This document shows positions 12,652 through 46,965 of a stretch of DNA of 64,000 nt, in pieces. Each line of letters starts with the position of its first letter. The first letter of the stretch is position 1. Source of the DNA: Bacilli bacterium (GTDB taxonomy: Bacteria; Bacillota_I; Bacilli_A; RF39; UBA660); NCBI GenBank assembly GCA_017409785.1, contig JAFQSD010000002.1, positions 598,597 to 662,596 on the forward strand, in the 5' to 3' direction. The position numbers were made by a program, and so were the translations under genes. Under the pieces are notes generated by a model that saw nothing but the letters and a program-made list of their open reading frames with translations, had not been told where the DNA came from and ran no database searches.

Positions 12652-12707
12652 AATAACGCATTTGAATTACTATGACTTTATAAGTCATGGCGGAAGGAGA
12701 AGATAAT

Positions 12708-41006: not shown

Positions 41007-41423
41007 ATGAAAGTACTAAGCATTCAAGAACCATATGCAACTTTAATTGCACTAGGTCATAAGAAAATAGAAACAAGAAGTTGGAAAACAACGTATCGTG
41101 GAGAAATTCTAATTCATGCAAGTGTTTCTAAAAAATTCTTAAAATCAATAACAAACCAGGAAATATTAGATTTAATAAAAAATATAGATTTAAACTATGG
41201 AATGATTATATGCGAAGCTAAACTTATAGACTGTGTAGAAATGACAAAAGACTATCTAGAACAAATAAAAAAAGATAAGAAGGAAAATCTATTAGGCATA
41301 TACGAAGAAGGTCGTTATGCCTGGTTATTAGATGAAATAAAGCCATTAGAAACTAAAATACCGATAAAAGGAAAATTAGGACTTTGGGAATATCAAAACA
41401 ATCTATCAACAAAAAAAGGTTGA
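41007..41423 (+). CDS. ASCH domain protein
   Basis: 138 residues. The N-terminal SIQEPYATLIALGHKKIETRSWKT contains the ASCH motif GxKxxExR, a beta-barrel of the PUA-like group. Such proteins bind RNA or modified nucleosides; some hydrolyse acetylated cytidine. The downstream promoter TTGACA begins at its very last codons. Confidence 0.9.
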   Translation: MKVLSIQEPYATLIALGHKKIETRSWKTTYRGEILIHASVSKKFLKSITNQEILDLIKNIDLNYGMIICEAKLIDCVEMTKDYLEQIKKDKKENLLGIYEEGRYAWLLDEIKPLETKIPIKGKLGLWEYQNNLSTKKG

Positions 41424-41448
41424 CAGACTTAAAAACAAGTGTTACAAT
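41420..41448 (+). promoter_or_regulatory. Consensus sigma-A promoter for the ABC exporter leader
   Basis: TTGACA (41420-41425), exactly 17 bp, TACAAT (41443-41448). It is one of only two perfect -35 hexamers paired with 17 bp on plus in the window. The leader is about 185 nt long and carries a short ORF and a terminator. Confidence 0.82.
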
Positions 41449-41481
41449 CAACTTGAATTTAAAGAGAAAGGAGTGGGAAAA

Positions 41482-41574
41482 ATGAAGAATTTAAATTTCA
41501 AACAAAATAATTTTAAAAATCTTATAGTAGAACAAGAATGGAGTTGGAAAATCGGATTTTTTCCTACTCATTAG
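41482..41574 (+). CDS. Leader peptide of the ABC exporter (attenuation type)
   Basis: 30-residue ORF with a strong ribosome binding site (AAGGAGTGGG) in the 5' leader of the exporter gene. It starts MKNLNFKQNNF and ends EWSWKIGFFPTH, with two Trp codons near the end. The last codons include CCTACT, the same hexamer as in the 5' arm of the terminator at 41598, so it can compete for the terminator 3' arm. The layout resembles bmrB-bmrCD of B. subtilis, where ribosome stalling on a leader peptide controls a multidrug exporter. A secreted peptide is a less likely alternative. Confidence 0.7.
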   Translation: MKNLNFKQNNFKNLIVEQEWSWKIGFFPTH

Positions 41575-41597
41575 AATCGATTAACTTTATTGTTATG

Positions 41598-41629
41598 ACC
41601 TACTATAAGAATAGTAGGTTTTATTTTTA
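41598..41629 (+). terminator. Conditional terminator (attenuator) before the ABC exporter
   Basis: 9-bp perfect stem ACCTACTAT/ATAGTAGGT with an AAGA loop and a T-rich tract. It lies between the leader ORF and the ribosome binding site of the exporter gene, so full transcription of the exporter must read through it. Confidence 0.8.
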
Positions 41630-41639
41630 GGAGGTATAT

Positions 41640-43370
41640 ATGAAAAGTTTAAAAGAATTCATACCTCTATGGAAATTAATTAAAGAAGAAAAAGTAAAGT
41701 TAATCATTGCTAGTACTTTAATACTTTTAGCAGGTATTTCTGAAATTGCAACGGGATACCTTAATGGAGCAGCAGTAGAATCAATTACCAATTTAGCTTT
41801 AAAAAATGCAGTTATATATTTAGTAATTTACTTAGGGATAGAACTACTATCTCATGCGATAATTGAAAACTATGCTGGGGCAATGTTAGAAAAAATTGAA
41901 AGCAAACTTACTAGAAAATTAGGATATTATACATATAAAAAGGCACTAGATATGCCATCGTATGCCTATGAAGAAAAAACATCCGGAGAAGTAATTAATA
42001 GAATAACTACGGATGCTGATTCACTAAGTTTCGCTTTTGGTCATCTTTTAAGTGCAGTTTCCTCATTAATCGGTTCATTAGTTGTAATCGTTTACATCTT
42101 CATGAACTCATGGATTGTAGGTTTAGAAATTGTAACATTTGTCTTTTTACTATTTTTAATAATAAAAAAATATAATCCAATTTTAAAACAAGCTCATAAA
42201 GAGAGAAAAGAAAAGCAGGATTTATTTACTTCTTTAGTTACAGAATCTATAAGAGGTATAAGAGAAATCAAAACATTAGGAATAAAAAGAAGTTTATTAA
42301 ATGATATGACTGAAATAATTAAAACAATATTTCAAAAGTCAAAAAATGAAATTGATGTTCGTAAAGGTTTTACTTTACAAACAAGAATACTTAAAGGATT
42401 TTTAGAGGTTGGTGTTTTTATAACATGTGTAATTTTAATTTATTATAAACAAATTACATTAACTTTCTTTATTTCAATGACTTACTATGTTTATAGATAT
42501 ATGTGGTTAATTGAAAACTTCAATAATCTAACACAAACGTATCAAAAACTAGTTGTATCACTAGGAAGAGTTAATGAAATATTAGAAAATAGATTATATG
42601 AAGATGAAAAGTTCGGTGAAAAGGAAATAAATAAAAATAAGGGAATAATTGAGTTTAAAAATGTAACATTCGGTTATCCGAATGAACAAGTAACTCTAAA
42701 AGACTTTAGTTTAACAATAGAACCTAATAAAAAGATTGCTATTGTAGGTAAGTCGGGTCAAGGAAAATCAACATTATTTAACCTTATTACAAGAATTTTC
42801 GACCCTCTTGAAGGAGAAATACTCCTTGATGGAGTTAATATTAAAGAATTATCGGAAGAATCTCTTCGAAAAAATATTTCTATAATTAGACAAGAACCAT
42901 TCATCTTCAACAGAACAATTAAAGAAAACTTTAAGTTAATCGACTCAAAAATTCCACTAGCTACTATAAGAAAGTATACAAAGTTAGCTTATCTAGATGA
43001 CTACATTATGTCTTTACCTAAAAAGTACGACACTTTATTAGGAGAAAGCGGTGTAAACTTATCTGGAGGTCAAAAGCAAAGACTTTCAATCGCAAGAACA
43101 CTTGCTAAAGAAAGTAAAGTAATTCTATTTGATGAAGCAACATCTGCCTTAGATAATCAGTCACAAGAATTCATAAAGAAAGCAATTGATAATCTAGCAA
43201 AATCCCACACAGTAGTAATTGTTGCTCATAGATTATCAACTATTATGGATGCTGATATAATTCATGTAGTTAATAAAGGTCAAATAGTCGCATCAGGAAC
43301 ACATGATGAATTACTAAAGAACAGTGAAATTTATAAAAATCTATATGAAACAGAATCTTTAAATTCATGA
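41640..43370 (+). CDS. ABC exporter, half-transporter with fused TMD and NBD
   Basis: 576 residues: six membrane helices in the first 310 residues (type I exporter fold, GYYTYKKALDMPSYAYEEKTSGEVINRITTDAD-type coupling region around 100-130), then an ABC domain with Walker A GKSGQGKST, signature LSGGQKQRL, Walker B VILFDEATSALD and H-loop VAHRLST. Works as a homodimer. The substrate is unknown; the attenuator suggests a translation-inhibiting drug as inducer. Own terminator downstream. Confidence 0.92.
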   Translation: MKSLKEFIPLWKLIKEEKVKLIIASTLILLAGISEIATGYLNGAAVESITNLALKNAVIYLVIYLGIELLSHAIIENYAGAMLEKIESKLTRKLGYYTYKKALDMPSYAYEEKTSGEVINRITTDADSLSFAFGHLLSAVSSLIGSLVVIVYIFMNSWIVGLEIVTFVFLLFLIIKKYNPILKQAHKERKEKQDLFTSLVTESIRGIREIKTLGIKRSLLNDMTEIIKTIFQKSKNEIDVRKGFTLQTRILKGFLEVGVFITCVILIYYKQITLTFFISMTYYVYRYMWLIENFNNLTQTYQKLVVSLGRVNEILENRLYEDEKFGEKEINKNKGIIEFKNVTFGYPNEQVTLKDFSLTIEPNKKIAIVGKSGQGKSTLFNLITRIFDPLEGEILLDGVNIKELSEESLRKNISIIRQEPFIFNRTIKENFKLIDSKIPLATIRKYTKLAYLDDYIMSLPKKYDTLLGESGVNLSGGQKQRLSIARTLAKESKVILFDEATSALDNQSQEFIKKAIDNLAKSHTVVIVAHRLSTIMDADIIHVVNKGQIVASGTHDELLKNSEIYKNLYETESLNS

Positions 43371-44316: not shown

Positions 44317-45402
44317 TTATTTATCTTTTTCCCAAGAATATCCATCTCTACCAAAATGACCATAGCAGGCTAAATCATAATATATAGGATGTCTTAAATC
44401 TAATTCTTTAATAATATTATCTACAGAAAAATCAAAATTATCATATACATATTTCTCAATTTCAGATAGTTCGGTTTTGTTAGTTCCAAATGTTTCAATG
44501 AATACACTTATCGGTTGTTCCTGACCAATTGCGTACGAAAGGCCAATTTCAACTCTATCAGCCAGTTTTTTACTAACTATGTTTCTTGCAACATATCTTG
44601 CATAATAAGCAGCACATCTATCCACTTTACTAGGATCTTTACTACTAAAGCAACCTCCGCCAATTCTTCCCATGCCACCATAGCTATCTACAACAATTTT
44701 TCTTCCAGTAGTACCACTATCTGCGAAAGGACCTCCAACAGTAAATGAACCACTTGTATTAATTAGTATTTTTGTATTAGAATCACACAAATTACTATTT
44801 AATACATGCAAAATAACTTCTTTTTTTATAAAATTTTCCAATTTTCTTCTCGAAACTTCAGGTTTATGCTGACATGCAATAATAACTGTGTCAACTCTTT
44901 TTGGAATACCGTCAACATATTCAACAGTTACTTGTGTCTTTCCATCTGGCAGTAAAAAGCTGTTTTTATCATTTTTTCTTACCTCAGTAAGTCTTTTAGC
45001 TAATTTGTTAGCTAACATAATTGGAAGCGGCATTAATTCCTTAGTTTCATTACAAGCATAACCAAACATAATACCTTGATCTCCAGCACATATTTTCTTT
45101 TTACTAACAGCGCTATTAATTTCTTCAGACTGTTTAGATACTTTAACCATAACCTCAAAGTCATCATAATATCCAATATCTTTCAAAACGTTCTTAGCGA
45201 TATTCTCGTAGTCAAGTTTTGCCTTTGTAGTGGCCTCACCATAAAGTAATACAAAATTGTCCTTAATTGTAGCTTCTACTGCAATATGGCTATCCTTATC
45301 TTGTTTTAAGGCTTCATCTAAAATCTTATCACTAATCTTATCGCAGATTTTATCTGGATGTCCTTCCGTAACACTTTCACTTGTAAAATAATATTTTCTC
45401 AT
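44317..45402 (-). CDS. metK: S-adenosylmethionine synthetase, divergent
   Basis: Makes SAM from methionine and ATP. 361 residues, about 20-35 shorter than usual MetK. Present are SESVTEGHPDKICD (ATP/Met site), the CAGDQGIMFGYA hexapeptide region and GGGCFSSKDPSKVDR. In that last P-loop-like motif the usual GGGAFSGKD has Ala to Cys and Gly to Ser. The ribosome binding site GAAGGAGGAG is clear. Control is by the SAM-I riboswitch upstream. The only SAM synthetase seen here, so probably functional. Confidence 0.93.
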   Translation of the reverse strand: MRKYYFTSESVTEGHPDKICDKISDKILDEALKQDKDSHIAVEATIKDNFVLLYGEATTKAKLDYENIAKNVLKDIGYYDDFEVMVKVSKQSEEINSAVSKKKICAGDQGIMFGYACNETKELMPLPIMLANKLAKRLTEVRKNDKNSFLLPDGKTQVTVEYVDGIPKRVDTVIIACQHKPEVSRRKLENFIKKEVILHVLNSNLCDSNTKILINTSGSFTVGGPFADSGTTGRKIVVDSYGGMGRIGGGCFSSKDPSKVDRCAAYYARYVARNIVSKKLADRVEIGLSYAIGQEQPISVFIETFGTNKTELSEIEKYVYDNFDFSVDNIIKELDLRHPIYYDLACYGHFGRDGYSWEKDK

Positions 45403-45432: not shown

Positions 45433-45550
45433 AAATAAAAAACTCTAGAAAGAGTTGTGGCCTCCTTCATCGTTGTTAGCATTACCACCTTACTACACAG
45501 CAGGTTGGTATGAGATCATTGAGCTAACTCTCTCCCTCATTCTTGATAAA
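45433..45550 (-). promoter_or_regulatory. SAM-I riboswitch (S-box) with terminator, controlling metK
   Basis: Read on minus. P1 pairs TTTATC (45545-45550) with GATGAA (45466-45471). The P2 loop GTTAGC pairs with GCTAAC after P3 (the S-box pseudoknot). P3 is ACCT/AGGT with the conserved AAGGTGnTAA segment. The aptamer is followed by a terminator stem AACTCT/AGAGTT (45441-45456) and six U. High SAM should favour the terminator and stop metK transcription. A second complementarity (TTTTATCAA in P1 with TTGATAAAA after the terminator) could form the alternative fold. Confidence 0.9.
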
Positions 45551-45562
45551 AGTTCTACTTTA

Positions 45563-45669: not shown

Positions 45670-46965
45670 ATGTCAAAAAACATAATAAGAAAACTTCATT
45701 GGCGAAAATTAGATGATCAAGCAAAGATATATTCATTATCTCAAAATATAAATGATACATCTATTTTTAGACTATCTGTAATTTTAAATGACAAGATTAA
45801 TCAACAGATATTAGAAAAAGCAGTAGAGCTTTCTCTTGAAACATATAAAGCTTATAAAGTAAAAATGGAAGGAGGCTTTTTCTGGTACTATCTTGACGAA
45901 AATAAAAAGAAGCCTGTTGTAACAGAAGAAAACGACTATCCATTTCAAAAGATTAATACACCAGATAATAATGATTATTTATTTAAAGTAACTTATTATG
46001 ATAAAAAGATAAATCTAGAACTCTTCCATACACTAACGGATGGAAATAGTGGAAGTAAGTTCTTTAAAGAAATAATATGCCGTTATCTTGAATTACGTTA
46101 TCCAAAAAAATTTAAACAAAATACACTATCATCTTCTAAAATTATTACAGATAGTGAAAATTCCTATATAAAAAATTATAAAAAAGATATAAATAAAGCT
46201 TATAATCCGCCTAAAGGATATATGTTAAAAGGAAAAGAGCTCCCACAAGGTGTAGTAGGAATTAATCATTTTAGTATTAAACTAGATAAAATTAAAAAAT
46301 TAGCTAAAGCCAACAATTGCACCTTATCAGTATTACTTGTTGCTATGCTAACATACTCTATATATAAAGGAAACTATAAAGAATATAAAGATAAAAAGCC
46401 TATAAATATATGTATTCCAATAGATTTAAAGAATTACTTTTCATCAGATACAATTTCTAACTTTGTATCTTACATGGTAGTAAGTTTATCTTTAAAAAAG
46501 AAACAAAATTACACATTTAAAGATATTTTAAATATGGTAGACAAAGAATTTAAAAAGAAATTAAAGTATGACAAAATTGTGGAAACAATGTCATCTAATG
46601 GTAAAATGTTAAACAATATATTTGTAAGAGTGGTTCCATTAATACTAAAAAGAATTATGGTTGTATTAGGTACATTAGAATTTAAAAGACATTTTTCCAC
46701 AACATTCTCCAATATTGGTATATTTGAAATAGATGACCAATATAAAGAATATATTGAAAGTTATTATTTTATTCTTTCTCCGGACTGGTCAGAAAAACTA
46801 AGATGTGGAGTAGTTACTTTTAAAGATAATTTAGTAATGACCTTTGGCACCAGTCTGCAAAATCCTAAAATAGAAAATGAATTTAAAAATTTACTAAACC
46901 AACATAAAATAAAATATAAAGTTCAAGGAAATGGTATGAATGAAGTAACAAAAAAAGCAAGATAG
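45670..46965 (+). CDS. Condensation-domain-like acyltransferase
   Basis: 431 residues, no signal peptide or membrane anchor. The catalytic HxxxDG motif of the CoA-dependent acyltransferase / NRPS condensation superfamily is seen as HTLTDG (His120, Asp124) within INLELFHTLTDGNSGSKFFKE. The second half has the matching domain (about 190-420). Closest in plan to stand-alone alcohol acetyltransferase-like proteins. No carrier protein or NRPS gene is near, so substrate and product are unknown. Confidence 0.72.
   Translation: MSKNIIRKLHWRKLDDQAKIYSLSQNINDTSIFRLSVILNDKINQQILEKAVELSLETYKAYKVKMEGGFFWYYLDENKKKPVVTEENDYPFQKINTPDNNDYLFKVTYYDKKINLELFHTLTDGNSGSKFFKEIICRYLELRYPKKFKQNTLSSSKIITDSENSYIKNYKKDINKAYNPPKGYMLKGKELPQGVVGINHFSIKLDKIKKLAKANNCTLSVLLVAMLTYSIYKGNYKEYKDKKPINICIPIDLKNYFSSDTISNFVSYMVVSLSLKKKQNYTFKDILNMVDKEFKKKLKYDKIVETMSSNGKMLNNIFVRVVPLILKRIMVVLGTLEFKRHFSTTFSNIGIFEIDDQYKEYIESYYFILSPDWSEKLRCGVVTFKDNLVMTFGTSLQNPKIENEFKNLLNQHKIKYKVQGNGMNEVTKKAR

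Follow-up and report, generated by a model that had tools for sequence, protein, structure and literature searches.

A proposed bistable leader RNA with a putative mimic of its own ribosome-binding site ahead of ABC exporter genes in uncultured gut Bacilli

A short leader RNA preceding an ABC exporter gene in gut Bacilli is fairly likely to be a ribosome-mediated transcription attenuator that operates independently of the peptide it encodes, the exporter being switched on when translation of the leader stalls early. The element was analysed in a 64,000-nucleotide stretch of DNA (the window) taken from a gut Bacilli lineage with a genome of about 1.5 Mb; the two closest relatives in the same genus are ruminant-gut assemblies labelled "Bacilli bacterium". 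Its features are collected in Table 1. The exporter is a half-transporter of the MsbA/P-glycoprotein type, and its Pfam, NCBIfam and PDB matches indicate no specific substrate. The consensus promoter, the 30-codon ORF and the terminator immediately before the exporter ribosome-binding site had all been recognised in the initial annotation and are confirmed here; three terminator-like sites are found in the region, compared with 0.2 in shuffled sequences. The antiterminator and the imitation of the ribosome-binding site were absent from that annotation.

Table 1. Features of the leader locus in the window, with the related rpsP promoters
Feature	Position	Strand	Basis or remark
Candidate operator, degenerate palindrome ATCAACA-N6-GGTTGAC over the -35 box	41405..41424	+	Fixed arm spacing; copies at rpsP
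Leader promoter	41420..41448	+	-35 TTGACA, 17-nt spacer, -10 TACAAT, TG ahead of -10
Z, conserved RNA 5' end TTGAATTTAAAG	41453..41464	+	Conserved block
Predicted RNA start	~41455	+	In most relatives -10 ends 6 nt ahead of conserved GAAT
A, leader ribosome-binding site and spacer	41471..41482	+	12 bp with C
Leader ORF, 30 codons, MKNLNFKQNNFKNLIVEQEWSWKIGFFPTH	41482..41574	+	3' of GGAG ribosome-binding site; frame conserved, peptide not
B, antiterminator 5' arm TCTTATAGTAG	41520..41530	+	11 bp with D; leader codons 13-17
A', putative ribosome-binding-site imitation GAGTTGGAAAA	41541..41551	+	Inside the WSWK codons; local pairing with C
C, last leader codons TTTTTCCTACTC	41558..41569	+	Partner A or A'
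D:E, intrinsic terminator and U-tract	41598..41629	+	Stem 41598-41619; D 41600-41610, also pairs with B
Exporter ribosome-binding site GGAGG	41630..41634	+	Sequence; terminator just upstream
ABC exporter, 576 aa, type-B half-transporter (ABC_membrane + ABC_tran)	41640..43370	+	Pfam, NCBIfam and PDB sequence matches
rpsP promoters with palindrome			L104, L106, L109, L117, L119, L121, L122, L125, L126, L127-L135

Relatives of the leader were collected in several ways. A search with the exporter protein gave about 20 clear orthologues from gut Bacilli, mostly of ruminants and rabbits; the leader lies ahead of the gene in 16 of them and is missing at L012, L016, L025 and L028. The conserved 5' block, written as the DNA pattern GAATNTNAA...GARAGGAGTG, has one site in each of 24 genomes among 386 of the same family, and each genome has a single copy of the block GAATTTAAAGAGAAAGGAGTG. 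An ABC exporter follows at all pattern-matched loci except L049, a chance match at an integrase start, and L045 (G307:C2:43756-44000). The latter is an orphan leader that carries the promoter palindrome, the ORF and the A:C pairing without an exporter, and has other hairpins downstream of it. In a class-wide sample, a looser pattern recovered two more leaders inside the family (L094 and L095), which agree with the model, and outside the family it met other gene starts and no leader of the same kind. Distant matches to the leader peptide (L004-L009) lie inside or beside unrelated genes and were set aside as chance. The final set comprises 33 leaders from uncultured gut Bacilli, forming 16 clusters (lineages) under 72% identity, and 32 of them stand clearly ahead of an ABC exporter, the orphan being the sole exception. 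A terminator is found near the leader stop codon in 26 leaders and no clear one in the other 7. Among the relatives without a clear terminator at this place, L018, L023, L052, L056, L057 and L059 keep A, A' and C. A translational output in the terminator-less relatives found no support, as the exporter ribosome-binding site did not become consistently more or less accessible when they were folded.

Because a whole-leader MAFFT alignment misaligned the C and D blocks, the helices were tested by cognate versus non-cognate pairing rather than with a covariance model: the duplex energy of an arm with its own partner was compared with that obtained with the partners of other leaders, over 20,000 permutations. 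These permutations correct for relatedness only in part, and the set of 16 lineages was therefore run as well. The terminator D:E, used as a positive control, scored -11.44 kcal/mol for cognate and -6.98 for foreign partners, with 0/20000 permutations as good. The same count was obtained for A:C (-14.85 vs -11.53 kcal/mol), also across 16 separate lineages, for A':C (-10.65 vs -7.45 kcal/mol) and for B:D (-11.58 vs -7.91 kcal/mol), also across 12 separate lineages, in all 12 of which the own partner ranks among the top three. The negative controls, A with the mid-leader and C with D, gave no cognate signal. The arms follow each other 5' to 3' as A, B, A', C, D and E; A:C encloses B and A', and A':C nests inside B:D. 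Comparison of the leaders demonstrates four helices, A:C, A':C, B:D and D:E, and, through their overlap or crossing, the exclusion of A:C with D:E by A':C with B:D.

Ribosome-mediated attenuation, as the initial annotation had put forward, is well supported by this comparison, but through helices other than those it proposed. CCTACT does occur twice, as it had noted, at 41563-41568 in the last leader codons and at 41599-41604 in the terminator 5' arm, and it had suggested that the leader copy could pair with AGTAGG in the terminator 3' arm. This pairing, C:E, is at chance level: cognate and foreign energies are -4.80 and -4.71 kcal/mol, and 7376/20000 permutations are as good. The complementarity described across the leader start, between Z and a possible partner Y in the early leader codons (about 41489-41501), does amount to 11 bp in the window, but its covariation is weak (118/20000 permutations, against 190/20000 for the control pairing Z:C). 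Nor would it hide the leader ribosome-binding site, which would stay in the loop; the last leader codons would hide the site instead.

In the proposed OFF fold, A would pair with C and the terminator D:E would form. In the ON fold, C would pair with the mimic A', giving a hairpin within the antiterminator B:D and destroying the terminator. Barring a pseudoknot, the two folds are mutually exclusive. A ribosome on the leader start would block A and push the RNA to ON, and one in mid-leader would cover B and favour OFF, so that free translation of the mid-leader would mean OFF. The exporter would be made when leader translation is held at or near the start, for example by a translation inhibitor, and the leader would serve as a timing device whose amino-acid sequence matters little. 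B begins at least 25 nt past the AUG in every leader, i.e., just beyond the footprint of an initiating ribosome. That the ribosome exerts control is inferred, as are the inducer and the exporter substrate; the direction of control and the link to drugs are suggested mainly by analogy with the BmrB leader (PMC4191407).

The 26 terminator-bearing leaders were folded from the predicted start site with the ribosome footprint kept unpaired. Before E is made, the expected number of B:D pairs is 9.7 for a ribosome at the start, 5.7 for one at the stop codon and 0.3 for one at codon 12; without a ribosome the value is 7.5, compared with 2.2 for A:C. The prediction for the stop codon is intermediate, and OFF would therefore need a mid-leader ribosome at the time D is transcribed. 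Once the RNA is complete, B:D (5.4 expected pairs) and D:E (4.4) are close to balance with a ribosome at the start, and a ribosome at codon 12 gives 0 pairs for B:D and 8.3 for D:E. The same helices could instead report the rate of initiation, an untranslated leader being ON: A':C and then B:D would form before E exists, only a ribosome moving through the leader would break them, and the exporter would come on when ribosomes are scarce or initiation is blocked. B:D is indeed already favoured over A:C at this stage when no ribosome is present, and A':C, being local, should fold first. However, the OFF fold dominates the complete RNA without a ribosome (A:C 10.1, D:E 7.7 and B:D 0.4 expected pairs), and the conservation of A:C would need a separate reason, for which this scheme supposes that A:C acts later and stops re-initiation on finished transcripts. 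Such a sensor is considered rather unlikely.

The attenuator switched on by early stalling supposes that the leader is translated, and its reading frame is conserved. Every one of the 33 leaders has an ORF of 20-34 codons starting 11-13 nt past the beginning of GGAGTG; both the ORF and its ribosome-binding site are conserved across relatives, and the ORF overlaps the switch arms. Within each lineage only 2-20% of shuffled leaders keep an equally long ORF open, and the summed log10 p over the 16 lineages is -19.3. The kept frame, with the same start, spans B and essentially all of C and ends ahead of the terminator stem. This argues against an RNA switch that responds to a ligand, a protein or temperature independently of translation, with an incidental ORF. 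Although such a switch might lead one to expect the very strong conservation of the 5' block and the retention of A, A' and C in the terminator-less relatives, a search of Rfam 15 at a permissive threshold gave no family and only chance microRNA matches far below the gathering score, and we regard this explanation as quite improbable.

The peptide itself shows little similarity among the 33 leaders. No conserved stalling peptide of the Erm or Mef/Msr type was found, nor is a run of regulatory codons, as in an amino-acid attenuator of the trp type, conserved: Trp occurs in 7 of the 33 peptides and WSW in 2, so the initial proposal that the WSW/Trp codons act as the sensor was rejected. In a relative of the same genus (L002, identical with site L041) WSW is already WSG, and the hairpin formed by the codons of this region keeps its energy (-11.5 and -11.7 kcal/mol) despite the change. 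The C block lies in three reading frames across relatives (18, 9 and 4 leaders) and is therefore kept as RNA. On the sequence evidence, TGG-AGT-TGG-AAA is a by-product, at the coding level, of an RNA arm mimicking the leader ribosome-binding site; as, in addition, neither the Trp codons nor the peptide sequence is conserved, stalling close to the tryptophans is not the likely trigger. A drug-dependent ribosome stall on a defined leader peptide in the WSW region, for which the layout resembling that of macrolide leaders would speak (PMC4335068), is thus very unlikely, the peptide, the tryptophans and the frame of C all being variable.

That these leaders make up a new family of bistable RNAs, whose ORF encodes a mimic of its own ribosome-binding site and in which C picks either the true site or the mimic, is proposed only tentatively. 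The RNA would read the occupancy of the start site, sensing initiation or early elongation regardless of which peptide or codons are involved, and it would have promoter-level control in common with the S16 operon. In the E. coli trp attenuator, the position of the ribosome selects terminator or antiterminator. The present leader differs in having no conserved regulatory codons, and under the model the choice would depend on occupancy of the leader start and the mid-leader.

Attenuators before ABC exporters are already known, among them BmrB (PMC4191407), patA (PMC4319486) and the ABC-leader (PMC2965389). The BmrB leader of bmrCD in Bacillus subtilis has a translated ORF, as is predicted for the present leader, and likewise places a terminator and an antiterminator ahead of an ABC multidrug exporter; in the accessible part of the report no specific peptide motif is given, and induction is by 50S drugs (PMC4191407). 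There, however, the terminator lies inside a 53-codon leader ORF and two genes encode the exporter, a heterodimer (PMC4191407). Here the terminator follows an ORF of 20-34 codons, and the leader carries a putative mimic of its own ribosome-binding site. The patA attenuator of Streptococcus pneumoniae also precedes an ABC exporter gene, with a terminator, an antiterminator and an anti-antiterminator all predicted, but the text available describes no leader ORF and places the start site only 67 nt ahead of patA (PMC4319486). In the mef/msr and ermK macrolide leaders, leader translation governs termination before a resistance gene, as is proposed here ahead of an exporter, but these rely on a conserved stalling peptide (MTASMRLR or MTHSMRLR), which has no counterpart in the variable peptides of the present set (PMC4335068). 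The ABC-leader of lactobacilli is a predicted attenuator before a multidrug exporter operon, for which only a premature terminator is predicted, and it is set beside the present leader by description rather than by sequence (PMC2965389). A search of the open-access literature gave no account of this element, nor of any leader mimicking its own ribosome-binding site. If the model holds, this would be an undescribed, covariation-supported class of attenuators controlling ABC exporters in uncultured gut Bacilli, a leader peptide could be conserved as an open frame whose sequence has no role beyond RNA folding, and the leader should directly sense ribosome occupancy at its own start site.

A palindrome over the -35 box adds a possible second level of control. 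Its consensus is GTYAACY-N6-RGTTGAC, and in most lineages it covers part of the leader promoter's -35 box with a single fixed spacing; the arm spacing is 6 in 10 of 15 lineages, other spacings occurring in 0-1. These genomes have further copies, either strict or with one mismatch, most of which sit on the -35 box of rpsP, the gene for ribosomal protein S16; in G201 one copy lies near rplM-rpsI. In the genus of the window itself, a degenerate version is present at both the leader and the rpsP promoters. From these motifs, the exporter leader and rpsP form a candidate two-promoter regulon, and the shared palindrome points to a putative regulator that would tie the exporter to ribosome synthesis.

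Elsewhere in the window, a 431-aa protein (45670-46965, plus strand) matches nothing in Pfam or NCBIfam at E 0.001 and contains HTLTDG, reminiscent of the HxxxD motif of acyltransferase type. A SAM riboswitch (45464-45552, minus strand) lies upstream of a metK-like gene on the same strand (44317-45402), and an L31-Firmicutes ribosomal protein leader was matched by Rfam at 12670-12699 on the plus strand.
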